From contig WVZY01000011.1 in the NCBI GenBank assembly GCA_011772205.1, positions 1-64,000 on the forward strand: DNA of 64,000 nucleotides, given 5' to 3'. The notes under the pieces were generated by a model. The model did no database searches. It saw nothing but the letters and a program-made list of their open reading frames with translations, and was not told the origin of the DNA. The translations under genes and the position numbers were made by a program. Positions within the stretch are counted from its first letter, which is position 1; every line of letters starts with the position of its first letter. This document shows positions 4,216 through 24,507 of the stretch, piece after piece. The stretch is from Candidatus Latescibacterota bacterium (GTDB lineage Bacteria; Krumholzibacteriota; Krumholzibacteriia; WVZY01).

Positions 4216-4863
4216 GTGAACTGCAGCAGTGCATCGAGACTCATTCAGGATTATGTGGATGGACGGCTTTTCGGCCTCGAGCGCAAAGCGTTCGAGGAGC
4301 ATCTATCCGCTTGCCCTGCCTGCTCGAAGGAACTCGAAGCGCACAAGGCCCTCTTCGCGCTTCTCGATCGGCTGGAACCTGACGCACCGCCCGTCTGGTT
4401 CGAGGAAACCATCGTGCGGCAGTTGAAGCTCGAGGGCGCCATATTCGAGCCGAAGGTTCCGCTCCCGAGAAGGATCGCCGCCGCTTACGGCCGGATGCCG
4501 GGAGTCGCGAAGTATCCGCTCGCCACGCTGGTCTCCGCACTGCTGATTTACATTCCGATCCACTTCATGCTCTCGTTTGCGAAGGGATTCGCGGGCAAGG
4601 TAGCCGTATTCGGGTCGGAAAGTCTCGTTGCCGTCGATCGGACGCTCGAGGGGATCAGCGTGCTTTCCCGCTTTTTCGATATCATCGCGAAAGATATCAG
4701 GGCGGTCAAAACGATATTCGGAGCCTTTTTCTCCTTGATTTCTTCGGCTGGCGGAGGCATTGTTCTGCCGATTCTGGGAGTAATTGCTCTATTGACATTA
4801 TTACTGATCCGGCACCTCAGAACCCCACAGAGAAGGAGCCAAAATGCGTCGACTAAATATTAG
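4216..4863 (+). CDS. zf-HC2 membrane protein, probable anti-sigma factor
   Basis: The start is GTG 4216, placed eight bases after AGGAG; a TTG at 4195 has no ribosome site. The protein has about 215 residues. Residues 1-40 hold the zinc-binding anti-sigma domain, with an early Cys and then HLSACPAC (H-x3-C-x2-C). A linker with LPRR leads to a transmembrane segment near residue 105 (LATLVSALLIYIPIHFML) and a second at the C-terminus (VLPILGVIALLTLLLI). ZAS-type proteins hold their ECF sigma factor at the membrane until a signal releases it. The partner is presumably the ECF factor at 2233. The last 20 bases overlap the next gene. Confidence 0.8.
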   Translation: MNCSSASRLIQDYVDGRLFGLERKAFEEHLSACPACSKELEAHKALFALLDRLEPDAPPVWFEETIVRQLKLEGAIFEPKVPLPRRIAAAYGRMPGVAKYPLATLVSALLIYIPIHFMLSFAKGFAGKVAVFGSESLVAVDRTLEGISVLSRFFDIIAKDIRAVKTIFGAFFSLISSAGGGIVLPILGVIALLTLLLIRHLRTPQRRSQNASTKY

Positions 4864-11954: not shown

Positions 11955-13343
11955 ATGGCTAAAACGATATTGATTGCAGACGATGAAAAGGGCATCAGGG
12001 ATTCGCTTCGCCGGCTGCTCGAGTTCGAGAAATACCGTGTGCTCTCCGCCGAGGACGGCCCGAAGGCACTTCAGGTTCTGGAAAAGGAGCTGGTCGACTT
12101 GTTGCTCCTCGATGTCAAGATGCCTGGGATGGATGGCCTCGAGGTTCTCTCGAGAGTGCACAAGGATCAGCCGGAACTCCCGGTTGTCATCATCTCAGGG
12201 CATGGAACCATCCAAACAGCGGTGGAGGCCACTAAACTGGGCGCTTTTGATTTCATAGAGAAACCCATCGATGCCGATCGAATTCTTCTTGTCATCCGGA
12301 ACGGCCTTGCTCAGAGGAAACTTATCCGGGAAAACATCTCTCTCAAGCAAGAGGTCCAGCGCAAGATACAGATTGTTGGCGAGCACGCGGATATGCTCGC
12401 TATCATGGAAACGCTGAAAAAGGTGGCCCCGACAAACGCGCGCGTCCTCATCATGGGTGAAAATGGGACCGGCAAGGAACTCGTTGCGCGGGTGCTCCAT
12501 GAATTGAGCGTCCGGGCCAAGGAGCCTTTTGTCGAAGTCAACTGCGCGGCAATTCCCGAAGAGCTGATCGAAAGTGAGCTTTTCGGTCATGAAAAGGGTG
12601 CGTTCACCGGTGCGATATCGAAACGGATCGGCAAATTCGAGCTCGCCGATGGCGGCACGCTGTTTCTGGATGAGGTTGGAGACATGAGCCTGTCTGCTCA
12701 GGCGAAGGTGCTGCGGGTGCTTCAGGAATCCCAGTTCGAGCGTGTGGGAGGGGCGGAGACGAAACGCGTGGACGTTCGCGTCATCGCCGCGACGAACAAA
12801 GACCTTTTGAAGCAAAGCCAGGAGGGAAGGTTCAGGGAAGACCTGTTTTACCGGCTGAATGTTGTTCCCATAACGATCCCGCCTTTGAGAAAACGCATTT
12901 CCGATCTTCCGCTTCTCGTCGACCATCTGCTCGAGCAGGCCGGCGCGGAGCTCGGCCAGCGGCGGAAGAAGATCAGCAAACGCGCGATCGAAGTCATGAA
13001 AGAGCACCTCTGGCCGGGAAATGTGAGGGAACTCAAAAATCTGATCGAGCGACTGGTGATACTGACGCAGTCCCCGGTTATAGATGCTCACGACCTTCCC
13101 GCCTTGGGGCCTGCGAAAAACATCGAAGAGAGGTTTTTCGATAAAGATCTGTACAACGACTTTAGAGAGGCAGTCGAAAAAGAGTTCTTTTCGAGAAAGC
13201 TGACCGCGAACGGATACAATGTCAGCCGGACGGCCCGCAAGTTGGGGATGCAGAGGAGCAATCTATATAAAAAGCTGGAAAAATACGGCATTCCTTATAA
13301 AAGAGCCCGCGAGGACGATGAGGGTGGAAACAACGAGGAATAA
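11955..13343 (+). CDS. NtrC-family sigma-54 response regulator
   Basis: 462 residues in three parts. A receiver domain (about 1-120) has the acidic pocket DDE near residue 10 and phospho-acceptor Asp53 ([13 protein letters not shown]). The AAA+ domain (about 140-375) has Walker A GENGTGKE, intact GAFTGA for sigma-54 contact, Walker [13 protein letters not shown] and a [13 protein letters not shown] segment. A C-terminal Fis-type helix-turn-helix has [24 protein letters not shown]. It activates sigma-54 promoters when phosphorylated. The start is ATG 11955; a GTG three codons upstream is less likely. No histidine kinase is encoded in the window, so this is an orphan here. It may or may not act on the sigma-54 promoters at 17.2 and 17.8 kb. 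Confidence 0.95.
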
Positions 13344-13468: not shown

Positions 13469-13497
13469 TTGACAACCTGTTGTACCCGGGGTATATT
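13469..13497 (+). promoter_or_regulatory. Strong sigma-70 promoter before the small secreted gene and TPR activator
   Basis: TTGACA and TATATT are separated by exactly 17 bases, a near-consensus housekeeping promoter. It lies about 70 bases upstream of the 13576 start. The rest of 13344-13575 shows no gene. Confidence 0.8.
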
Positions 13498-13575
13498 TAT
13501 TTAGAAAAGAAGATTTGCCAATAGTTTTCAAAATCACTGAATATAGATTTTGAGGACAGAGGAGCTGATGGCAGG

Positions 13576-13893
13576 ATGAAACGGGCACTATTCGTATATC
13601 TAGCCGTACTAGCGGTTCTGCTCGTCTATCCATCCACCGATCTTCTTGCAAAATCTCCCAAATCTAGCGATTACCCAACTATAATTATCGTCCCTCCGAC
13701 CATTTATGCTCCAGGACCCAATGATTATTGGGGTACTGGCGGTGAAGATGATGGAGGAGATCCGGGAGACGCCGATGACCTTGCCGGAACCCGAGGAGGC
13801 AAGCCAGTAGACAGGAATTTCCTGCCGGGCTTTGGAGATGCAAGGATCGTTTTGAAGGTTTGGTGGTTGTACTTCTTCCACAGAATCTTTTAA
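13576..13893 (+). CDS. Small exported protein of unknown function
   Basis: 105 residues, unrecognised. Residues 1-25 look like a signal peptide (FVYLAVLAVLLVYPSTDLLA, with AKS at the likely cleavage point). The mature part is rich in Pro, Gly and Asp: a PTIIIVPPTIYAPGP segment, then an acidic GGEDDGGDPGDADDLAG stretch and a TRGGKPVDR turn. It ends in a basic-aromatic tail (VLKVWWLYFFHRIF). It sits 52 bases upstream of the TPR sigma-54 activator under a strong promoter. A secreted peptide precursor or ligand for the neighbouring regulator is one possibility; a spurious reading frame cannot be excluded, but signal peptide, promoter and operon position argue for a real gene. Confidence 0.6.
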   Translation: MKRALFVYLAVLAVLLVYPSTDLLAKSPKSSDYPTIIIVPPTIYAPGPNDYWGTGGEDDGGDPGDADDLAGTRGGKPVDRNFLPGFGDARIVLKVWWLYFFHRIF

Positions 13894-13945
13894 GATCGCC
13901 CGTTTTTGGTGGACGACAGGCTGATCGCTAGCAAGGAACGCTTCC

Positions 13946-16900
13946 ATGTCTGACGCACGGGAAGAAAAAGACTGGCAGGGGCGTAAGCAGGGTCAAGGAG
14001 GGAGGAAGTCGAGATCTGTTTCCTCACCTGGTGAGGAAATCGGTCAAATGCATTATTCCACGGAAAACTACACCACCGCTTTAGAATACTTCTCCAGAGC
14101 ACTTGGATCTCCAGACATATCATCATATCCCGACCGGTTCCGCATCCTTCTACGGATGAGCGATTGCCACCGTAAGAAGGGTCATTATGTGGAAGCTCGT
14201 CAATACCTCGAAAAAGCCCGATCGCTGCTGGACGATGCTGTCGTCGATGAGGATTGCGGCAAGATCGAGTATAGGGAAGCGTATATTCTGCTCGCGCAGG
14301 GCAACTACGATGATGCGCTCCGCATTGGCTTCAGCGCGTACCGGCGGCTGAAGCATTCGGACGAGCATGGCGAAGTCGCGGACATCCAGCTCCTCCTTGC
14401 CAACTGCTACCACCGCTTGGGCTTGAGCAGCGAGGCGGAGGATTTCTTCATGGATGCTCTGTCCTCCTACAGGCGGATTGAGGACCGGATTGGGATCGCG
14501 TACGTATACAATAACCTCGGACTTTTGCATAAGAACGCCTGTCGGTGGAATCGGGCGATCGCATCGCTTTCGAAATCGCACGAACTGGCCAAGACACTCG
14601 GGCTTACCCAGCACTTGATCCGCGTGCAATTGAACCTCGGCGTTGTGTATTCGAAGCTTCGCCGCTTCCCTGACGCCTTGAGCGCCTTTGTGAATGCCGC
14701 CAACATGGCCGAACGGTTCGGAGATAAGAGCAAGCTCACAAAAGCCATCTTGATGCAGGGTAGAACGTACATCCAATGCAGTGATTACGCTAAAGCCGAG
14801 AAGTGCATCGTTCGCGCCCAGGCTATGGCGAACGATCTCGGTTATGGTCGTGAGTCGGCACTCGCCGATGAGTATCTCGGGGAGCTGATGATGGCGAGGG
14901 GCCTGTATCATGAGGCTCTGGTCAACTTCAACAACGGGCTACGCAAGGCAAGAAAGATTGCCCCGGAGGGAGACGTCACCGCTGAGCTGTTGGCGCGATT
15001 GGCCAGTGCTCACTACCACCTGAACAATCCCAAAAAGGCGCTGCTGCTCATCGACGAGGGTCTCGAGGTTGCCAATAACTGCGGTGAGTTTTACGAGATC
15101 GGATTCTTGTACCGGACCAAGGGGCTCTGCCATGGCAAAATCGGTGATCTCAAGCAAGCCATATCCAATCTTACGACCAGCATCGAGATGTTCGACAAGT
15201 TCGGGAATCCTTACGGCAAGACCCAATCCGAGCAGCTCCTATCGAAATCCTATATCCGCGTTCGTACAGAAGCGGGTCTTTTGAAAGCAAAACAGATCCT
15301 TTCCGATAGCATCGTCGGCTCCAGCAAACTGGACGACAGCCAGGGGCAGATTGTTTCCCAGGTTCTCCTCGCCTGCGTGGAGCAGCGCCTGGGCAATCTC
15401 GATGACGCCCTCCTGGCCATCTACGAAGCCGATCGTCTTGCTGAGGAGGAGCAGAATCCCAAGTTCCGCAGATTTCTGGGGGCCATGCGAGCCCGCGTCG
15501 AGGCCAAGATGGCCAGCGCGACCACACGGGTTATCGACCAGTTCTCCATTTTTGGCGATATCCAGACCGGTGCTCGTTCGAGGGAAAAGCTGGTAGAAGG
15601 CCTCAAATCAACCCTGAAAATCATCCTGGACAAGGTGGAAGCGGACAGCGGATTCATCGCGATCCCCGCTCCATCCGGAGGACGCCTGGAAGTGGCCTGC
15701 ACCGAAAAGATGAGCCAGAAAGATGCCCGGTTGATCCTCGGGTCCAATTCGGTTCCCCGGAGCGCGAATCAGAATCAACGAGGACTCACGATCATGGATT
15801 CGCTGAGGGATCCCGAGCTCCGCAAGCTGAGCGACCGCCTCAGCTTCGATCTGAGCACGCTCGTGTTCCAGAACCTGGGATTTGAAGGCGAATCGCTCGG
15901 CATTCTATGCATCCATCAGGAAAGGCCGTCATCCAGCTCGCCGCTGGAACAGGAAGCCCTGAACTTTGTCGCCGCCTATTCGAGCCTTCTCTCGCTGTCC
16001 GTGTACGAACTCATCCGGAATGAGAAAAGGGACAGGCTCAAACCGAAGCGCCAGGCAAAAGGATTTGAGACCATCGTCACGGAAAATCAAGGGATGCTCA
16101 AACTTCTCAACCTCGCCGAGCGTGTTGCGCACTCCGATGCCACCGTTCTTCTACAAGGCGAAACGGGGACAGGGAAGGGGCTCATTGCTTACGCCGTCCA
16201 TTTGCTCAGCGAACGTAGAAATCGCAAATTTATTCACGTAAACTGTGCAGCCATGCCCGAGGCGCTTCTCGAATCCGAGCTGTTCGGACATGTCAGGGGT
16301 GCGTTTACCGGCGCCATTGCCGAAAAGGAGGGGCTGCTGCGCCAAGCCCACGGTGGGACGATTTTCCTGGACGAAATCGGAAAAACATCGTTGGCGATGC
16401 AAGGCAAGTTACTGCAGTTCCTCGACACGGGCAAAGTGAGGAAAGTCGGTTCGAACGATTTCGTCCCTGTCGATGTCCGGGTTATCTGCGCTTCGAAAAC
16501 GGATCTCATGGCGATGTGCAACGAGGGGCGATTCCTCGAGGACTTCTTTTATCGCATCAATGATTTTCCTCTCACTGTTCCGCCGCTCAGGGACCGGAAA
16601 GAAGATATACCGCTTCTTGTTTGTCACTATTTGAACAAGTTCTCATCTGACATGGGTAAATCGGTGGGTCCGTTTTCCGATGAGGGAATGGAACGCCTCA
16701 TGTCCTACCGCTGGCCCGGCAATGTCCGGGAGTTGGAGAAAGTGGTGAAGCGCGCCATCATTCTCGCCGAGTCGGGCGAGGGGCTTGATCTCCACCATCT
16801 TCCCCCGGAGGTTGCTCGTGAGGGCAACGGCGGAGACCGGCAAGCCGGTCAACGGCTTACCTTGAGGGACCGCATCGAGCAGGTGGAAAAAGAGGCCATC

Positions 16901-17014
16901 CTCACCGCCCTGGAGCGCTGCAATTGGAACAGATCTCAAGCGGCCATCGAACTCGGGATTAGCTATCCCAATCTGCTATCAAAGATTAAGCGCTACGGTT
17001 TCAACGGTTGTTAA
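13946..17014 (+). CDS. TPR-GAF-AAA+-Fis sigma-54 transcription activator
   Basis: 1022 residues. A short basic N-terminus is followed by about ten to twelve degenerate tetratricopeptide repeats (roughly 30-525; for example IAYVYNNLGLLHKNACRWNR and GFLYRTKGLCHGKIGDLKQA). A GAF-like sensor domain (about 550-690) and a complete sigma-54 AAA+ domain come next: Walker A GETGTGKG at 738-745, GAFTGA at 785-790, Walker [27 protein letters not shown]. It ends with a Fis helix-turn-helix (NRSQAAIELGISYPNLL). There is no receiver domain, so control is probably by ligand or protein binding to TPR or GAF rather than phosphorylation. AGGA eight bases before ATG supports the start. Two sigma-54 promoters lie just downstream and are the obvious targets. 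Confidence 0.9.
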   Translation: MSDAREEKDWQGRKQGQGGRKSRSVSSPGEEIGQMHYSTENYTTALEYFSRALGSPDISSYPDRFRILLRMSDCHRKKGHYVEARQYLEKARSLLDDAVVDEDCGKIEYREAYILLAQGNYDDALRIGFSAYRRLKHSDEHGEVADIQLLLANCYHRLGLSSEAEDFFMDALSSYRRIEDRIGIAYVYNNLGLLHKNACRWNRAIASLSKSHELAKTLGLTQHLIRVQLNLGVVYSKLRRFPDALSAFVNAANMAERFGDKSKLTKAILMQGRTYIQCSDYAKAEKCIVRAQAMANDLGYGRESALADEYLGELMMARGLYHEALVNFNNGLRKARKIAPEGDVTAELLARLASAHYHLNNPKKALLLIDEGLEVANNCGEFYEIGFLYRTKGLCHGKIGDLKQAISNLTTSIEMFDKFGNPYGKTQSEQLLSKSYIRVRTEAGLLKAKQILSDSIVGSSKLDDSQGQIVSQVLLACVEQRLGNLDDALLAIYEADRLAEEEQNPKFRRFLGAMRARVEAKMASATTRVIDQFSIFGDIQTGARSREKLVEGLKSTLKIILDKVEADSGFIAIPAPSGGRLEVACTEKMSQKDARLILGSNSVPRSANQNQRGLTIMDSLRDPELRKLSDRLSFDLSTLVFQNLGFEGESLGILCIHQERPSSSSPLEQEALNFVAAYSSLLSLSVYELIRNEKRDRLKPKRQAKGFETIVTENQGMLKLLNLAERVAHSDATVLLQGETGTGKGLIAYAVHLLSERRNRKFIHVNCAAMPEALLESELFGHVRGAFTGAIAEKEGLLRQAHGGTIFLDEIGKTSLAMQGKLLQFLDTGKVRKVGSNDFVPVDVRVICASKTDLMAMCNEGRFLEDFFYRINDFPLTVPPLRDRKEDIPLLVCHYLNKFSSDMGKSVGPFSDEGMERLMSYRWPGNVRELEKVVKRAIILAESGEGLDLHHLPPEVAREGNGGDRQAGQRLTLRDRIEQVEKEAILTALERCNWNRSQAAIELGISYPNLLSKIKRYGFNGC

Positions 17015-17028
17015 ATATCTTTATAAAT

Positions 17029-17041
17029 GTTTGCCTGGCGC
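17029..17041 (+). promoter_or_regulatory. Degenerate activator half-palindrome
   Basis: TTGCCTGGC matches nine central bases of the GTTGCCTGGCAAC palindrome at 17643. It lies about 180 bp upstream of the first sigma-54 promoter and could be a second, weaker enhancer site. Confidence 0.3.
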
Positions 17042-17085
17042 TGAAACTTGCTGATTTGTAAAGAGTTGCTTCCTCCTCAGTTTCC

Positions 17086-17098
17086 GTTTCCTGGAAAC
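17086..17098 (+). promoter_or_regulatory. Candidate enhancer site of the first sigma-54 promoter
   Basis: The perfect dyad GTTTCC-T-GGAAAC is centred 127 bp upstream of the -24 element at 17219, the usual distance for a sigma-54 activator. It shares 11 of 13 bases with the palindrome upstream of the second sigma-54 promoter. Confidence 0.55.
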
Positions 17099-17217
17099 TT
17101 TTTTTATATCAACGCCTTTCCCGCATTTTTTTTGAAATACGGGTAATTGGACCATACCGTAACATTATTTTTTCAGTGTAGTTACGAAGATTCTTAATTT
17201 TCGACAAGGCCTTATAA

Positions 17218-17232
17218 TGGCATGGCCCTTGC
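17218..17232 (+). promoter_or_regulatory. Sigma-54 promoter 1 (-24/-12)
   Basis: TGGCATGGCCCTTGC has the invariant GG and GC exactly ten bases apart and fits TGGCAC-N5-TTGC closely. Transcription would start near 17244. No convincing reading frame follows before 17.8 kb; a nominal frame that begins at 17217 covers the promoter itself and was rejected. Confidence 0.8.
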
Positions 17233-17243
17233 CTTTTATAAGC

Positions 17244-17480
17244 GCAGGAAGTCATCCCGTGCGTTTAGGAACTTCCGTCTGGTGGGGGAGAGGATTCTTG
17301 GGGAATCGTGAATTCCCCAAGAATCCGAAAAAGCTGGTTTCGGAGCTGAGAAAAGCAAAAAAACGGAATTATCCCGTTCTTGAGTGTGTCCATCGAGTAA
17401 CAGTGCTTTTCTCGATTTCTCGGCCACCCGAGAAAAAGCTGACGCTCAACGTTTCTCTCTAAGCTGAGCTGCTGGCTTTG
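17244..17480 (+). ncRNA. Putative sigma-54-dependent structured RNA
   Basis: The stretch after sigma-54 promoter 1 lacks a plausible gene but is rich in hairpins. GGAAGT pairs with ACTTCC (about 17249-17276). A perfect 15-bp stem runs from 17292-17306 to 17312-17326 with a 5-base loop. AACGG pairs with CCGTT near 17365, and TTTCTCG with CGAGAAA near 17420-17440. The density of stems directly behind a well-formed promoter suggests a small RNA or long structured leader. The 3' end is not clear and I see no family match. The remaining 17481-17800 holds only the second palindrome and a TAACATGTTA dyad at 17725. Confidence 0.45.
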
Positions 17481-17640
17481 CAAGTTAGTTGATTTCGAGA
17501 GGTGGGGTCTCGAACATTGACAAAGAGGGAAACTGGGCGTCAGTTTTTTATGCCTCTTTTCATGCCTCAAAATCCCCTCCAACCATGCCCCAGCACCGAG
17601 CGAATGCCTCCCATTTCATGTCCTTTTTTTAGGACAGTTG

Positions 17641-17657
17641 TCGTTGCCTGGCAACGA
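17641..17657 (+). promoter_or_regulatory. Candidate enhancer site of the second sigma-54 promoter
   Basis: The perfect dyad TCGTTGCC-T-GGCAACGA is centred 154 bp upstream of the -24 element at 17803. Its core GTTGCCTGGCAAC differs from the first site (GTTTCCTGGAAAC) by one symmetric base change per arm, as expected for two binding sites of one dimeric Fis-type activator. Confidence 0.6.
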
Positions 17658-17801
17658 TTAAATCGGCTCTCTTCAGCAACCTCATCAGCCATTTACTCCG
17701 TCTATCAGTAGTCTTCGATCACCTGTAACATGTTATCAAAAAGCAAATTAGCGAGAGTGCGATCTGGCTGTTCGGGCAGCTTCTCAGTGGTTTTTTCCTT
17801 A

Positions 17802-17816
17802 TGGCATGCCGCTTGC
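17802..17816 (+). promoter_or_regulatory. Sigma-54 promoter 2 (-24/-12)
   Basis: TGGCATGCCGCTTGC has GG and GC ten bases apart and differs from promoter 1 only in the spacer. The start point, near 17828, falls just before ATG 17834 of the lipoprotein gene, so the leader would be almost absent. Confidence 0.82.
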
Positions 17817-17833
17817 GCTATAGGACGAACGAG

Positions 17834-18694
17834 ATGCGGAATCTTAGCGGCATAAGAAAGGGGGGTCAAGACTCGAAAGGTCACGCGGCCCTCTATGCAT
17901 TGATCGGAGCATTGCTGCTGCCGGCGCTAATATACACCGGCTGTTGTGACGAATGTGATGACACAGTGGTAATGATCGATAATGGCCCCCCTTCTGCGCC
18001 GCGAGGCCTCTACAGCGTTACGGGCGATGAAGAAGTAACCTTGTACTGGTACGAGAATCCCGAGCCCGACATCGCTGGTTATGACGTTTATTGGAACGAT
18101 GAGGAAACCGGTTATTACGACTACCTCGCCACCACCCCGCCTGATCAAACCTGGTACGTTGACTATACGATCGCCAACGGCGAAACGCGGTACTACGCGT
18201 TGATCGCTTTCGATACTCAAGGATTAGAGAGTGACTGGAGCTACGAGGTGGCGTTCGATACTCCTCGGCCGGAGGGGTTCAATCTCGTGCTCTATGATTA
18301 TTTGGGGCAAAACAGCAGCCTGAGCGGTTACGACTTCTCCTCGTTGTCGGGAACCGCTCAGGCTTGGGACGACCCTGCCACGGATGTTTACTTCGATCCC
18401 TCAAATGGCGTGAACCTCCTCCGCGCGAGGATCGGAGTAGACATCCAGGATTACGGGCTCATCGATCTGATCGATGTGGATTGGGCCCCTAGTGATGGGT
18501 GGTCCCCTACCCAACAAGCCGAGCTTATCTACGGCCACAGCTACATAGTGAGGATAAGCGACAAGGCAGGCGGCCATAACTATGCAAAGATTTTTGTCAG
18601 CTCTGTCTCTCCCAGCTCTGTAACGCTGGATTGGGCTTACCAAACCGTCGTCAACAACCCGGAACTCACCCCTCGTGGAGGTGCATCAAAATGA
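17834..18694 (+). CDS. Lipoprotein with fibronectin-III-like domain
   Basis: About 286 residues from ATG 17834; the ATG at 17801 lies within the sigma-54 promoter and cannot be used from it. A basic N-terminus and hydrophobic segment (ALIGALLLPALIYTGC) end in a lipobox-like IYTGC. One FN3-like domain follows (about residues 50-145; PSAPRGLYSVTGDEEVTLYW, PDIAGYDVYW, YYALIAFDTQGLES), then a unique region rich in aromatic and acidic residues (about 155-285). FN3 domains mediate binding on extracellular proteins. The stop overlaps the next start (ATGA), so the two proteins are made together, presumably under the TPR activator. No function is assigned. Confidence 0.78.
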   Translation: MRNLSGIRKGGQDSKGHAALYALIGALLLPALIYTGCCDECDDTVVMIDNGPPSAPRGLYSVTGDEEVTLYWYENPEPDIAGYDVYWNDEETGYYDYLATTPPDQTWYVDYTIANGETRYYALIAFDTQGLESDWSYEVAFDTPRPEGFNLVLYDYLGQNSSLSGYDFSSLSGTAQAWDDPATDVYFDPSNGVNLLRARIGVDIQDYGLIDLIDVDWAPSDGWSPTQQAELIYGHSYIVRISDKAGGHNYAKIFVSSVSPSSVTLDWAYQTVVNNPELTPRGGASK

Positions 18695-19908
18695 AAAGCA
18701 CTGACATGGTATCCATGAGAAAGTCCGCTCTGGTGGTGGGACTTGCCTTAGTGGTTCTGGCCTTTGTGGGCGGACTTACCGCTTTGAATGCGGGTATCGC
18801 CTACCGGAACACCGCGGATATCCGGGTCTGGTTGGAGGAAGACTACGACGTTTACCAAGACATGGACGATGTCGTCTTTCACATCAGGGCGGCGCGTGGT
18901 TGCTACGCGCTGGTGTATGTGGTCGACACGGACGGATTCGTCCACGTCATCTACCCGTTCTCTCCCCACGAAAACGCCTGGATCGAGGGTGGTGTCACTT
19001 ATCGATTCTCGGCGTTCGATGTCGGGATGTACGGATTTGATTTCAACAGGGGAATTGCTTTCGTCTACGCAATCGGCAGCCCTTACCCGTTCAACTACTC
19101 GTGCTATGGCGCAAACATTTTCGCCGGTCGTTTCGCGTACCGCATTTACGGAGATCCTTTTGTGGCTTGCAGGCTCTTTTATATCTCCTTGCTTCCGGTA
19201 TGGTGCGATCGCGCGGTGATCGGTATCAGCTTCACGCACTTCTATATAAGAGAATGGGTGCGGTATCCTAGCTACCTTTGCTTCTGTAATGGAGCATCTT
19301 ACCGGATCCGTGGAGGTTACTGCAGCCATTGCGCACCGGTCTACGAAAGATACCGGAGCCACCAGAGAGACCCCTATCGAGTGCTGAGTCCGAAGGTCCG
19401 GTACAGGGGCGACGCATCGGCACACGCAAGGATCGCCCCCGTGCCGGAGAAGCGGAGGGAAGCCATACGCGCAAAGCTAAGCCGGTTCAGAACGGCCACG
19501 CCTTCCAATGAAAAGGAACGGGTGCTGCGCGAGAAGACTATCGGCACGAAAAAGATAATTAGGGAAAAGAGTAGAGCCGTTGAGAAAAACAAGGGGCAGC
19601 GCTCCATCAAAATGAAGCCGGCGACTAAAAAGTCGTCAACGAGCAGCCGCCTTGTCGCTCCAAAGAAGGCTGTGAGGAACAAGGACGTGCGAAGAAATGC
19701 TCAGAAAAGTAGCGTCGTACGCTCGAGCAGCGAGATCGTCAAGAAAGAGAGGAGCAGGACCGTTGCCCTTAAGCAGAAGGCTCAGATCAAGACATCGACT
19801 CCGCCACGCGCGAAGACGGTGAGTGCAGGGAAGACATCCAAAGCAAAGGCATCCGTTGCGAAAGCAAAACGGTCCGTCGGGACAAAGGCTTCGAAGAAAG
19901 CGCGCTAA
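18691..19908 (+). CDS. DUF4384-like exported protein with lysine-rich tail
   Basis: 405 residues from ATG 18691, with GGAGGT eight bases upstream. A signal or anchor segment (about 12-33) precedes a DUF4384-like domain (about 40-125; VWLEEDYDVYQDMDDVVFHI, then YALVYVVDTDGFVHVIYPF and a WIEGGVTYRF strand). A cysteine- and aromatic-rich middle (about 130-220) follows. The last 170 residues are highly basic and low in complexity, packed with Lys, Arg, Ser, Thr and Ala. DUF4384 domains occur in exported or surface proteins; the role is unknown. The tail could bind an acidic polymer such as nucleic acid or envelope polysaccharide. The gene starts within the lipoprotein stop (ATGA). Confidence 0.75.
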   Translation: MKSTDMVSMRKSALVVGLALVVLAFVGGLTALNAGIAYRNTADIRVWLEEDYDVYQDMDDVVFHIRAARGCYALVYVVDTDGFVHVIYPFSPHENAWIEGGVTYRFSAFDVGMYGFDFNRGIAFVYAIGSPYPFNYSCYGANIFAGRFAYRIYGDPFVACRLFYISLLPVWCDRAVIGISFTHFYIREWVRYPSYLCFCNGASYRIRGGYCSHCAPVYERYRSHQRDPYRVLSPKVRYRGDASAHARIAPVPEKRREAIRAKLSRFRTATPSNEKERVLREKTIGTKKIIREKSRAVEKNKGQRSIKMKPATKKSSTSSRLVAPKKAVRNKDVRRNAQKSSVVRSSSEIVKKERSRTVALKQKAQIKTSTPPRAKTVSAGKTSKAKASVAKAKRSVGTKASKKAR

Positions 19909-20151: not shown

Positions 20152-23100
20152 GTGAGCGCAAGGGTCTCCTTTTTCTCATTTTTCGCGTCAACCTGCCTTT
20201 TACTGCTCTTCTTAGCCTCTGAAATTCATGCCACAGGCTATAGCCCATCGTACGCTCCCGATAAGCGTTTTTTGGCCGGCCCCAAGTGGCACCAGGCGCC
20301 GGTCAAGCTCAATCGCTTTCAAAGAGAACGCGTCCGGAGTTTGCTCGCTGGCCGCGAAATTGCGCATGCTCAGGCGGCTATGGATACCCTGCGCCTCGTT
20401 GCCATCCAGGTTCAATTCGCCGACAGCCTCATGGGCGGTCAGCCGGGAAGCCGGAGGCCGCAGCTTCGGGATTCGCTGTTCTTTGCAAATGAACTCGAGC
20501 ATCTGACCGACTACTACCGCGGTGCTTCCAGGAACTATCTGACGGTGGCCTGGGAGGTCACCTCACGGCTTTATACGCTTCCCAAAGCCATGGGGTACTA
20601 CGGGAAGGACGGTGAAGAGGAAACGCGGGTAGTGGAAATGGTGCAAACAGTGATCGATTCCGCGGATGACGATGTGGACTTTTCGTTGTTCGATGCGGTG
20701 GTTGTCATCCACGCCGGCGCGGGCCAGGAGACCGATTTGGCGGATGATTCCAGGGAGCAAATCTGGTCGAGCTTCTACGATCTGGACGATATCGATCATG
20801 CATTCCCCGACAGCACTGTCTCGGGTCTGGCGACGAACGACTCGCTCGGCGGTATGCCGTTTTTTGTCGATAACTTCCTCGCGCTTCCCGCCAATGCAAG
20901 CCAAGACGGAGTCATTATCGCGACGTTGGGCATATGGGCATTCGAAACGGGAAGTCGCCTCGGGCTCCTCCCGTTGTTCGACAGCACGCCGGCAGGTTTC
21001 CCGGATTCGCGCGGTGTGGGGAGCTTCTGCCTGATGTCCTACGGGCTGTTCAACACGGCGAGTTTCATACCTGGATTCCCCTGCGCGTTCAACCGGATTC
21101 TGGGCGGCTGGCTGGATCCAGTGTTCGTCGAGAGCGGCGGCCATTTTCGGCTTCGCGATATCAATTCTCCGGCGAACGGAGATACGGCTTGCTTGAAGAT
21201 TCCGGTCACCGAGAGCGAGTACTTTCTCGTCGTCAACCGGGTGCACGACACGAACTTCGACAGTCTGTTCACCTTTGGTGATTTGGACAGCAATCTGGTT
21301 CCCGACAACCCCGATTCGCTTCTGGGAGCGGAATTCGACTTTTTCCTCACCGATGTTACCAATCCCCAGGTCATCAAGCGGGATCCAGATTTTAAGAACA
21401 TGTTCAGGAGATACGTCTCCACCGGCTCGGGCATCTATGTCTGGCACATCGACGAAATGGTCATTCGTGAGGCATTGGAGACCGGATTTCTCCCGAACGA
21501 CTTTGTATCGAGAAAAAGTGTTGATCTCGAAGAGGCCGACGGCGTGCAGGATCTCGACGGGGTGGCAGATCAATCGTTCAGTTTCGGCAGCCACTGGGAC
21601 AGCTTCCGAGCGGGACATATCGACCACTTCAGTCCGGATACCGATCCCGCCTCGAATGCGCACTCGGGTGCGAGGACGGGGATTCGCGTGAGCGGGATAA
21701 CCTCTCCAGCTCCTTATATGGAGTGCGATGTGTCGTTTTCGCTTCCTTACAGCGAAAGGCGAATTCGGTGGGAAGCGACTGCGCCCGGTCAGCCACCGAC
21801 TCCGGTGAACCTCGATGGCGGTGATTCGACGGAGGTCGTCATTCTTGCGGATACCGGCCTGGTATATGTGTTCAAAGCGGACGGTAGCGAGTATGTCGAT
21901 CAGGATGCGGACCCGCAAACCATCGAGCCGTTTCTCACGGTTCCTGGAGCTGTTTGGACGGGGCCTCCGGCGTTTGGGGATATCGACGGCGATTTGGACT
22001 TGGAAATCGTCGCCTCCAGTAAAGACGGGCGGCTGTTCGCCTGGCATGACGACGGCTCGGAAGTGTTCGACGGGGACGGTAATCCATCGACCGAAGGGGT
22101 CCTGTATGCTGGATCGACAATGGTCGCACCACCGCTGCTCTACGATATTATTAGCGGAACAGCCAACCGGATCGCGATCATTGAAAGAGAAGGTGACTCG
22201 CTTGCCGTGAGCTTCATCGATGACACCGGCAACAAGGTCTTCCCATTCATTTGGCCGGGAAGCGAGCCGGCTAAATTCCAGGCTCAGTTCGCCTCAGCTC
22301 CGGCGGTTGCAAACATAGGAGTGCCCAATCTCGTCCATGCTAATCTCGCCGTCGCATGGGCGGATACCGTGGACGGCGTTTACGGCATTTCGTTCCTGCC
22401 TCTCGAGCTTCAGCCGGCGGAATCTTCTGTGGGAGAGCATTCGGTGTTCGGGTCTGCATTCGAGCTCCTGCCGGCGGTGACGTTTCCGCTTCCGGAAGGG
22501 ATCGATGTCGAAGAAATGATTTTTTCGCCGGTGGCGGCAGGTGATCTTGATGCGGACACCTTCGACGAGGTGGTCCTTGCACTCCCCAATGGCGAATTGG
22601 TGACTTATTCATATGGCGCCTTCGCCAGGGGGAGAGAACCCCTCTCCATAGCGGCGCTCCGCGGAAACAATCCATCCGCCCCGGCGCTTGGCGATGTGGA
22701 CAACGACGGAACATTGGAGATAGCGCTTTGGGACGATGACTTTTTTTATCTCTTCAAGCACAACGGCGCATTGTACACCAACTGGCCGAAGCCGGCCCTG
22801 TCCGTGGAATTCCTCGATCTCCCCCCGCTCTCTTTCGACAACCTTCACAAAAGCCCGCTGATCGGGGACATCAACGGAGACGGTGCGGTGGAGATCCTGT
22901 TCCCGACGTCGCAAGGGGCCGTCCGCGCGTTTCACAACGATGGGAGTACGGTTGCCGGCTTCCCGCGGCCGGCACCGGCGTTACTCGATGCCACGCCGTC
23001 CCTCTCCGACATCGATGGGGATGGCGAGGTCTCCCTGCTTGCCGTTGGAACCCTGGCGGCGCTCGAGGGCAGGGACGGCGTCCGCGACACACTCATTACC

Positions 23101-23532
23101 AGCAATGTAGCAATCCTGTCCGTTCAGTCGTTTCCCGGCTCTCAGGCGACGGATGATCAGTTCTGGGCGATGTACCAGAACAGTGTCGACAGGCGGGGGC
23201 GGACCCGCGCTTTGGAACCGCTGCAACAGAGCCCGGCACTCGTGGAAGCGGGATCCTTTATGATTTATCCCAATCCGGTAACGGGTGCCGAAGTGCGGGT
23301 GCGTGTAACGCTGAACCAGAGCGCTACCGTGGGTGTGGAGATCTATAATCTAGAAGGGGAGAGAGCTTTTTCTCACGAATTTGCTGCGAATCCGAGTGGT
23401 GTGATCCAAACACCATTCGATGAAGCTTTGGATGTGAGCAGCCTGAAGAGCGGTATATATTTTCTACGCCTGTCCGTCAGCGGCTCGAGCGAGTCCACGG
23501 CGGAAGTGAAACCATTTGCTATAAAGAGATGA
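20152..23532 (+). CDS. M6-like secreted protein with lost zinc site, FG-GAP repeats and sorting domain
   Basis: 1126 residues from GTG 20152. Signal peptide (about 1-26). Residues 60-480 follow the M6/immune-inhibitor-A layout, including LVAIQVQFADS, FFANELEHLTDYYRGASRNYL and the segment where HExGHxLGLPDLYD is expected. Here that segment reads FETGSRLGLLPLFD, so both zinc-binding His residues are replaced (Phe, Ser) while the rest survives. FG-GAP/VCBS-type repeats follow (about 600-970: GDIDGDLDLEIV, GDVDNDGTLEIA, GDINGDGAVEIL, SDIDGDGEVSLL). A C-terminal sorting domain begins YPNPV and ends SGIYFLRLSV. It is probably a surface binding protein derived from a peptidase. A PorV-like gene follows directly. 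Confidence 0.8.
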   Translation: MSARVSFFSFFASTCLLLLFLASEIHATGYSPSYAPDKRFLAGPKWHQAPVKLNRFQRERVRSLLAGREIAHAQAAMDTLRLVAIQVQFADSLMGGQPGSRRPQLRDSLFFANELEHLTDYYRGASRNYLTVAWEVTSRLYTLPKAMGYYGKDGEEETRVVEMVQTVIDSADDDVDFSLFDAVVVIHAGAGQETDLADDSREQIWSSFYDLDDIDHAFPDSTVSGLATNDSLGGMPFFVDNFLALPANASQDGVIIATLGIWAFETGSRLGLLPLFDSTPAGFPDSRGVGSFCLMSYGLFNTASFIPGFPCAFNRILGGWLDPVFVESGGHFRLRDINSPANGDTACLKIPVTESEYFLVVNRVHDTNFDSLFTFGDLDSNLVPDNPDSLLGAEFDFFLTDVTNPQVIKRDPDFKNMFRRYVSTGSGIYVWHIDEMVIREALETGFLPNDFVSRKSVDLEEADGVQDLDGVADQSFSFGSHWDSFRAGHIDHFSPDTDPASNAHSGARTGIRVSGITSPAPYMECDVSFSLPYSERRIRWEATAPGQPPTPVNLDGGDSTEVVILADTGLVYVFKADGSEYVDQDADPQTIEPFLTVPGAVWTGPPAFGDIDGDLDLEIVASSKDGRLFAWHDDGSEVFDGDGNPSTEGVLYAGSTMVAPPLLYDIISGTANRIAIIEREGDSLAVSFIDDTGNKVFPFIWPGSEPAKFQAQFASAPAVANIGVPNLVHANLAVAWADTVDGVYGISFLPLELQPAESSVGEHSVFGSAFELLPAVTFPLPEGIDVEEMIFSPVAAGDLDADTFDEVVLALPNGELVTYSYGAFARGREPLSIAALRGNNPSAPALGDVDNDGTLEIALWDDDFFYLFKHNGALYTNWPKPALSVEFLDLPPLSFDNLHKSPLIGDINGDGAVEILFPTSQGAVRAFHNDGSTVAGFPRPAPALLDATPSLSDIDGDGEVSLLAVGTLAALEGRDGVRDTLITSNVAILSVQSFPGSQATDDQFWAMYQNSVDRRGRTRALEPLQQSPALVEAGSFMIYPNPVTGAEVRVRVTLNQSATVGVEIYNLEGERAFSHEFAANPSGVIQTPFDEALDVSSLKSGIYFLRLSVSGSSESTAEVKPFAIKR

Positions 23533-23589
23533 TTCGGCTATTCAATTAGTATAGTGATAAATAGTAGAATAGTAATGAGGAGAGGCGAC

Positions 23590-24507
23590 ATGCGAAGAAC
23601 CATAGCACTGCTGATCATTACACCAGCTCTGGCGTTTTCTTACAACCAGGCAATAGCCGGTGATCCCGGTGATGCCGGCGCCTTGTTCTTGCGCATCGGG
23701 CTGGGAGCAAGAGCGTCCGGCATGGGGGAGGCTTTTGTTGGTGTGGCCGAGGATGCCTCTTCGGTTTACTGGAACCCGGGAGCGATGGCTGCCGTGCTGG
23801 GGACGAACGCGCTCGCGATGCACAACGAGTATCTACACTCCCTGAGGCTGGAACAACTCGCACTCACACACGAAACCGACTACGGGACGATTGGTCTAGG
23901 TTTCACGGGTCTTTACATGGATGAGTTGGAAAGGCGCGGTGACTCTCCGACTTCCGTTCCGCTCGGCACTTTTTCCGCTTATGACGTCGCCGTAACCGTC
24001 GGATTCTCGCGTTACATCTTCCCCAATCTTTCAGCGGGAATAGCAGTCAAGCCCGTTTATCAGAAAATCGACGAAGAGTCCGCCATTGGCGTCGCCTTCG
24101 ACGTTGGGGTGTATCACATTGCCAGGATGCCCGGAGTGAAATTCGCCGCGGTCATCACAAATGTCGGAAAACCCATGAAGTTCGTTTCCGAAGAATACGC
24201 CCTTCCGCGCGAGATCAAAATTGGGGGCAGCTATGAGAGGCGGGTTCCAGCCGCAAGAGGTAAAGTGCTCTTTACATTGGATGTTCTATTTCCCAACGAC
24301 GGGGATATCAAGGAACACGCGGGTTTCGAGTATGGGTATACGGGAAGGCTGTTCCTTCGTGCAGGCTATAAAGCGGGTTATGATTCGTTCGGGGCAACGT
24401 TCGGCTTGGGCGTGAAATATAAGAAGCTTATCTTTGACTACGCATTTCTGCTCGTCGATAACGATCTGGGGGATAGCCACCGCCTGGGCGTGGGGTTTAC
24501 TCTTTGA
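23590..24507 (+). CDS. PorV/PorQ-like outer-membrane beta-barrel protein
   Basis: About 305 residues from ATG 23590, which has GAGGAG seven bases upstream. A signal peptide (ALLIITPALAFSYNQAIAG) precedes the diagnostic N-terminal block LFLRIGLGARASGMGEAFVG followed by EDASSVYWNPG. Amphipathic strands of a FadL-like barrel then run to the end, closing with a typical aliphatic/aromatic end (LGVGFTL). In type IX systems PorV receives cargo bearing the C-terminal sorting domain, so its place 57 bases after a cargo-type gene is telling. The last 11 bases overlap the facing lpxH-like gene. Confidence 0.82.
   Translation: MRRTIALLIITPALAFSYNQAIAGDPGDAGALFLRIGLGARASGMGEAFVGVAEDASSVYWNPGAMAAVLGTNALAMHNEYLHSLRLEQLALTHETDYGTIGLGFTGLYMDELERRGDSPTSVPLGTFSAYDVAVTVGFSRYIFPNLSAGIAVKPVYQKIDEESAIGVAFDVGVYHIARMPGVKFAAVITNVGKPMKFVSEEYALPREIKIGGSYERRVPAARGKVLFTLDVLFPNDGDIKEHAGFEYGYTGRLFLRAGYKAGYDSFGATFGLGVKYKKLIFDYAFLLVDNDLGDSHRLGVGFTL

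Follow-up and report, generated by a model that had tools for sequence, protein, structure and literature searches.

The locus considered here lies on contig WVZY01000011.1 (GCA_011772205.1), of which a stretch of 64,000 nucleotides (nt) was analysed; this stretch is called the window, coordinates are window positions, and all features lie on the plus strand. The best explanation of the locus as a whole, with a probability of roughly 0.7, is that it is a phylum-wide sigma-54 control island of Krumholzibacteriota, in which a small exported protein and an activator with a TPR-GAF sensor are followed by two sigma-54 promoters, P1 and P2, a structured RNA between them (RNA A) and a lipoprotein operon. 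The usual order in relatives is response regulator, small gene, activator, P1, RNA, P2 and lipoprotein, with the DUF4384 and M6-like genes commonly next; this gene order, the promoters, the RNA boundaries, the fold and the conservation are all read from the DNA sequence. A sequence-only reading had described positions 13469–19908 as a self-contained signalling locus. However, the locus reaches past this interval on both sides, to a response regulator (11955–13343) and to a secreted protein and a PorV-family gene (20152–24507), and it is not self-contained in the strict sense because the NtrC-type response regulator, a second sigma-54 activator, is a constant upstream neighbour.

The activator was detected in 77 of 80 Krumholzibacteriota genomes, and in 44 of the 46 of good quality, with a profile of its TPR-GAF half, and a search of relatives found orthologues throughout the whole class. 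Thirty-nine loci from 39 genomes were then read with their flanking DNA. The small gene is directly upstream of the activator in every one of them (39/39), a match to P1 is present in 37, with a variant -24 element in one further locus (L131), and P2 and the lipoprotein occur together in all 32 loci in which the lipoprotein was found, so that the succession of small exported protein, TPR-sigma-54 activator and -24/-12 promoters, first noticed in the window alone, is conserved in relatives, the opposite of the missing conservation that would have told against it. The activator occurs twice in one genome (G006), each copy with its own small gene. Runs of N interrupt two loci from otherwise single-contig genomes, L038 (about 265–365 nt past the activator stop) and L044 (at the activator 3' end), and the apparent gene loss there is thus no real evidence of absence. 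The records CP070631, CP070677 and CP070763, titled Latescibacterota, carry the same island; these genomes group with Krumholzibacteriota and their titles look outdated.

Both sigma-54 promoters were found by pattern search and are conserved in relatives, P1 as TGGCATGGCCCTTGC at 17218–17232 and P2 as TGGCATGCCGCTTGC at 17802–17816, about 32 nt before the lipoprotein start, which agrees with the two near-identical promoters reported earlier after the activator. Each has -24 and -12 elements with GG-N10-GC spacing at a conserved position, and the genome has a gene for RpoN. Genome-wide there are 51 exact matches to the pattern, compared with 21 for the reversed control, and a pair 584 base pairs (bp) apart is therefore far beyond chance. 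The matching palindromes that had been described at the two promoters, GTTTCCTGGAAAC and GTTGCCTGGCAAC, did not hold up in the same way: they match each other at 11 of 13 positions in the window's genome but at only 7–9 of 13 in the nearest relatives, and were rejected as activator sites; since they are not conserved there, they are probably not the sequences that the activator recognizes. The conserved repeats are different ones, at 17010–17025 and 17619–17636.

The interval between P1 and P2 appears, from its sequence, to hold a separate structured non-coding RNA, neither a leader nor an open reading frame (ORF). At about 306 nt, RNA A (17244–17549) would extend from P1 to its terminator; it folds far better than shuffled sequences (z = -5.9), and its 3' domain (17432–17549) does so more strongly still (z = -6.7). 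The consensus fold in the window's family, f1, has two-sided changes at 11 of 41 pairs (five sequences, without a control run); in family f6, where a single RNA of about 300 nt is found, 39 of 76 pairs change on both sides, above shuffle and slid controls, and in family f4, where RNA A is shorter (about 150 nt after P1), 12 of 31 pairs do so, a count reached by no shuffle and above the slid controls. Of 21 loci from three families, 19 have the start of the conserved RNA 13–15 nt past the -12 element, and the other two, both in f8, have it at 33–34 nt. A sigma-54 transcript is expected to start at that distance past the -12 element. RNA A occurs as one locus per genome, at this place, and no convincing copies were found elsewhere in the genomes. 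The "hairpin-rich transcript" noted earlier thus stands as far as its hairpins go, and is more than was noted, being a discrete conserved RNA. A coding leader between P1 and P2 was rejected, as no ORF is common to the loci. It might also be supposed that the interval merely serves the lipoprotein operon directly downstream as a long leader or attenuator, and hairpins are common in leaders; but in most of the loci read, terminator-like structures close RNA A well ahead of P2, P2 itself lies about 30 nt before the lipoprotein, and in f4 another RNA with its own sigma-70-like promoter comes next, which makes a leader very improbable.

The most recognizable part of RNA A is the apical loop GGUGGGG (17501–17507), which is the same in f1/f2 and f6. 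The hairpin is closed by AGA/UCU in f1 and f6; f4 has retained its letters, and f3, f5 and f7 have looser versions. Homology of the RNA across clades is drawn from the shared position, promoter and GGUGGGG hairpin and not from end-to-end alignment, and on this sequence evidence the clade versions are inferred to share one ancestor. No covariance model in Rfam matched at the gathering score (Qrr, GlmY, CrcZ, 6S, CsrB and others), and the best chance matches, permissive searches included, had E = 0.15 or worse. RNA A is probably, judging from its sequence features, a new regulatory RNA family, and the island around it probably a control locus of a new kind.

A second RNA, RNA B, of about 100 nt, follows shortly after RNA A in f4/f8 (L049, L051, L052, L104, L111 and others). 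RNA B has its own TTGACA/TATAAT-like promoter, a terminator in most loci and one copy per genome; its hairpin loops are AUGGCGAGA and CAUCCCC, and 9 of the 30 pairs of its consensus fold show two-sided changes, again reached by no shuffle and above slid controls. It has no Rfam match either. The loops by which RNA A and RNA B may pair in f4 are invariant. A hairpin with a GGCGAGA loop closes or follows the P1 transcript in f6 and f7 (e.g. L134, L136, L122), and because it resembles the first hairpin of RNA B, this suggests that RNA A and RNA B form a single transcript in some clades and separate ones in others. RNA B is partly tandem-duplicated in L102 (around 4620–4720).

The RNA cofactors encoded in these genomes limit how RNA A may act. 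Hfq was found in none of 29 genomes, most of them Krumholzibacteriota relatives, and RNA A was accordingly rejected as an Hfq-type small RNA. CsrA is present in 16 of the 29 genomes searched and absent from the window's genome, from all six searched genomes of the window's family and from several RNA-carrying f4/f8 genomes. Since these genes were not found, RNA A would work without Hfq and, in the window's family, without CsrA. Sponges of the CsrA/Rsm kind are often driven by activators, and several GGA motifs are present in RNA A, so that a role in titrating CsrA could be considered; the absence of CsrA from the window's family and from several RNA-bearing f4/f8 genomes leaves this proposal scarcely credible.

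Transcription of the small gene and the activator is predicted to begin at a sigma-70-type promoter, TTGACA-17-TATATT (13469–13497), which was found where it had been placed before, and a TTGACA-17/18-TATAAT-like promoter lies about 90–130 nt upstream of the small-gene ATG in most relatives' loci. The small protein (13576–13893) has 105 amino acids, or about 97–119 in relatives, and within its taxonomic family and order its homologues stand beside the activator; in the window its gene is 52 nt from that of the activator. It has a signal-peptide-like N-terminus (by eye and hydrophobicity), which is consistent with the exported protein of this length predicted earlier, followed by a GDADDLAG motif and a hydrophobic aromatic C-terminus. 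An alignment of 23 sequences shows an invariant Gly-Asp inside a GD[AP]DD-like motif, and this central GD motif is the most conserved part of the protein; the C-terminus is hydrophobic and aromatic in most families, its sequence differing between genera while the arrangement is constant. No match to the small protein was obtained in Pfam or NCBIfam.

The activator (13946–17014; 1022 amino acids) has a TPR-GAF-AAA+-Fis helix-turn-helix (HTH) architecture according to Pfam, a profile search and AlphaFold2. It has the make-up of a bacterial enhancer-binding protein, with Sigma54_activat, AAA lid and Fis-type HTH domains (Pfam 210, 86 and 49 bits, respectively) and a GAFTGA motif in the translation, and Pfam found no receiver domain. 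The AlphaFold2 model, based on 20 orthologues, has a mean confidence score (pLDDT) of 86.5 and shows a TPR superhelix at residues of about 28–500 and an alpha/beta domain at 546–697. Pfam GAF is absent among the matches listed for the activator, and the GAF-like assignment of residues 546–697 comes from the alpha/beta fold and from a NifA model that aligns from residue 547. The TPR array with a GAF sensor in place of a phospho-receiver, as first described, is thereby recovered. The GAF-AAA+-Fis arrangement is that of NifA/NorR-type activators, from which this protein differs in having some 500 residues of TPR ahead of the GAF domain. The best structural matches of the modelled TPR array are long TPR superhelices of a generic kind, LGN among them. 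LGN and similar long arrays bind extended peptides.

The likeliest role of the small exported protein is to signal the state of export or of the envelope to the TPR sensor. A specific form of this proposal, plausible though held at somewhat under even odds, is that a stalled or degraded small protein, or a fragment of it, meets the TPR domain and releases the activator, raising the RNA and the envelope operon. The constitutive-type promoter, the obligate pairing of small gene and activator and the envelope and secretion proteins encoded behind P2 are consistent with it, and Escherichia coli has a periplasmic lipoprotein that governs a sigma-54 activator together with a sigma-54 small RNA (PMC6075780). 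On the other side, contact between the small protein and the activator is presumed, and neither a transmembrane segment in the activator nor a kinase partner was identified at this locus. The other proposal is peptide quorum sensing as in the RRNPP regulators of Firmicutes, in which the small protein, once secreted, would be processed to a pheromone, perhaps consisting of its hydrophobic C-terminus, and taken up again, and binding in the TPR groove would switch the AAA+ domain. The likeness lies in a TPR protein beside a small Sec-type gene, here 52 nt apart and always together, and the variation of the C-terminus between genera within a constant arrangement also fits. The published five-part signature calls for a TPR receptor of 250–500 amino acids and a Sec-secreted propeptide of 10–100 amino acids located -60 to 400 bp from the receptor (PMC10075063). 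The island falls outside this signature and differs in size, domain architecture and phylum: the receptor, at 1022 residues, is twice the published range, and the 105-residue propeptide is narrowly above it. Moreover, the best-conserved part of the small protein is the central GD motif and not a C-terminal peptide, and the closest structures are generic superhelices. Pheromone signalling of this kind is therefore unlikely, and the earlier suggestion of it is not supported as family membership, while a peptide signal may still be the mechanism.

The conserved repeats upstream of the promoters bear on which activator acts where. Putative upstream activating site 1, GTTAAATATCTTTATA (17010–17025), is an AT-rich repeat that lies 208 nt upstream of P1 and overlaps with the stop codon of the activator; it is found at -207/-208 of P1 in four genomes of the window's family, and a related repeat, GTAAAGnnnCTTTA, lies at -127 to -129 of P1 in most of f4. 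Putative upstream activating site 2, TGTCC-N8-GGACA (17619–17636), lies 183 nt upstream of P2 and recurs about 148–184 nt upstream of P2 in nearly all f1/f2 and f4/f8 loci; it is perfect in 3 of 4 f1/f2, 7 of 14 f4/f8 and 1 of 4 f7 loci, weaker in f6 and not seen upstream of P2 in f3 and f5 loci. Only three perfect copies of site 2 occur in the 4.1-megabase genome, one of them at this locus. Apart from site 1 being slightly over-represented at P2 in f4, neither site is found at the other's promoter more often than background. The different repeats point to two recognition sequences and thus possibly to two activators, the response regulator and the TPR protein, and P1 and P2 may, on this sequence pattern, answer to different ones. 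The response regulator (11955–13343) is of NtrC/NtrX type with a sigma-54 AAA+ domain (Pfam Response_reg and Sigma54_activat; NCBIfam ntrC/NtrX below cut-off), and orthologues 50–81% identical lie directly upstream of the island in most relatives. An arrangement with one promoter under the response regulator and the other under the TPR activator, by which the island would integrate two signals, has close to an even chance: P2 is the only promoter with an enrichment of site 2, that of site 1 is found mainly at P1, and both activators are constant neighbours, but site 1 is weak in the window's family (its null was reached in 15 of 200 shuffles) and shows the slight excess at P2 in f4, and a single Fis HTH can bind divergent sites.

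The control island may thus be pictured as follows. A housekeeping promoter would yield one operon for the small acidic exported protein and the TPR-GAF activator, whose sensor is predicted to lie in its own N-terminal half; a cue, probably read via the TPR-GAF half and the small protein, would lead to RpoN transcription from P1 and P2, with the activator or activators bound at the upstream repeats opening RpoN polymerase at both promoters. P1 would produce the terminated structured RNA of about 150–320 nt, with the conserved GGUGGGG hairpin in most clades, as a regulatory arm, and the RNA would likely act through a protein partner or by base-pairing via its G-rich loop. P2 would serve the lipoprotein/DUF4384 operon, beside type IX-like secreted and PorV-family genes, as an envelope or structural arm. 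Transcription itself, the assignment of activators to promoters, the role of the small protein and the RNA targets are inferred in this scheme. A bolder version, offered only tentatively and rather doubtful as a whole, is a new type of phylum-wide signalling island, in which the exported peptide-like protein acts on the TPR-GAF activator and switches on an undescribed family of structured RNA, the GGUGGGG loop of which acts on its targets without Hfq or CsrA and perhaps, in one clade, by kissing the CAUCCCC loop of a constitutive partner RNA, all in step with the type IX-like envelope operon.

Several points weigh against the control-island explanation. In f4 the consensus gives the GGUGGGG motif a different fold, end-to-end alignment fails between the RNA versions of the families, and the RNA models R1 and R2 miss the window's RNA. 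The upstream-site motifs were tested on the same loci that yielded them, and for this reason the shuffles guard only partly against circularity. The repeats also differ between P1 and P2, so that the two promoters need not share one activator. In addition, all sequences come from uncultured genomes, many of them metagenome-assembled.

The island resembles two known systems in its logic and, on the comparison made here, is a member of neither. It has been reported that in QseE/QseG/QseF-GlmY an exported partner protein is needed for the function of a sigma-54 activator that drives a small RNA (PMC6075780), and the island shares both the sigma-54 activation of a small RNA and the exported partner. 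However, QseF is a response regulator with a kinase and QseG a lipoprotein, whereas the island activator has a TPR-GAF sensor and no receiver, and GlmY is unrelated to RNA A, which has no Rfam match. Similarly, in Vibrio the NtrC-family sigma-54 activator LuxO controls the Qrr small regulatory RNAs (PMC11407668, PMC8043402). The likeness again lies in a sigma-54 activator controlling small RNAs, and the island differs in its lack of a detectable Hfq in the 29 genomes, its one RNA copy, its strict synteny, its TPR sensor and its second sigma-54 promoter with envelope genes. Qrr RNAs use Hfq. Titles and abstracts on Krumholzibacteriota, in which TPR or GAF sigma-54 activators and RNA motifs were sought, yielded nothing relevant, the papers on the group being surveys as far as these show. 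With this locus a phylum that has no cultured model organisms gains a probable new family of non-coding RNA, or two families in one clade, for which promoter, 5' end, terminator and activator are predicted. The locus also links TPR sensors, seldom considered in sigma-54 activators, with a small exported partner whose conservation is strict; thanks to this pairing, one small gene and one promoter are enough to put the question of what such TPR-activators sense to the test.

The genes behind P2 begin with an FN3-like putative lipoprotein of 286 amino acids (17834–18694), which has a lipobox-like LIYTGC by eye and orthologues directly after P2 in relatives. The ATG at 17801 falls within P2, and the coding sequence must accordingly begin at 17834. 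The following gene (18691–19908) encodes a DUF4384-like protein with a basic C-terminal tail, whose Pfam DUF4384 match (E = 8e-6; 26.3 against 27 bits) is just under the cut-off, and homologues are in place in several families. The lipoprotein/DUF4384 pair described earlier is therefore kept for the lipoprotein, with its start corrected, and reduced to a weak sub-cut-off match for DUF4384. A secreted M6-like protein with FG-GAP repeats and a type IX secretion system (T9SS) sorting domain comes next (20152–23532; NCBIfam T9SSA_dep_M6i 200 bits, below cut-off; TIGR03296; Por_Secre_tail), and its Por_Secre_tail score of 33.2 bits, against a cut-off of 23, marks it as T9SS cargo. Its metal-binding motif is degenerate, with WAFETGSRLGL in place of HExxH, and by sequence the protein is nearest to the inactivated T9SS-dependent metalloprotease family and apparently inactivated itself. 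The last gene of the locus (23554–24507) encodes a PorV/PorQ family outer-membrane protein (NCBIfam PorV_fam, 170 bits, above cut-off).

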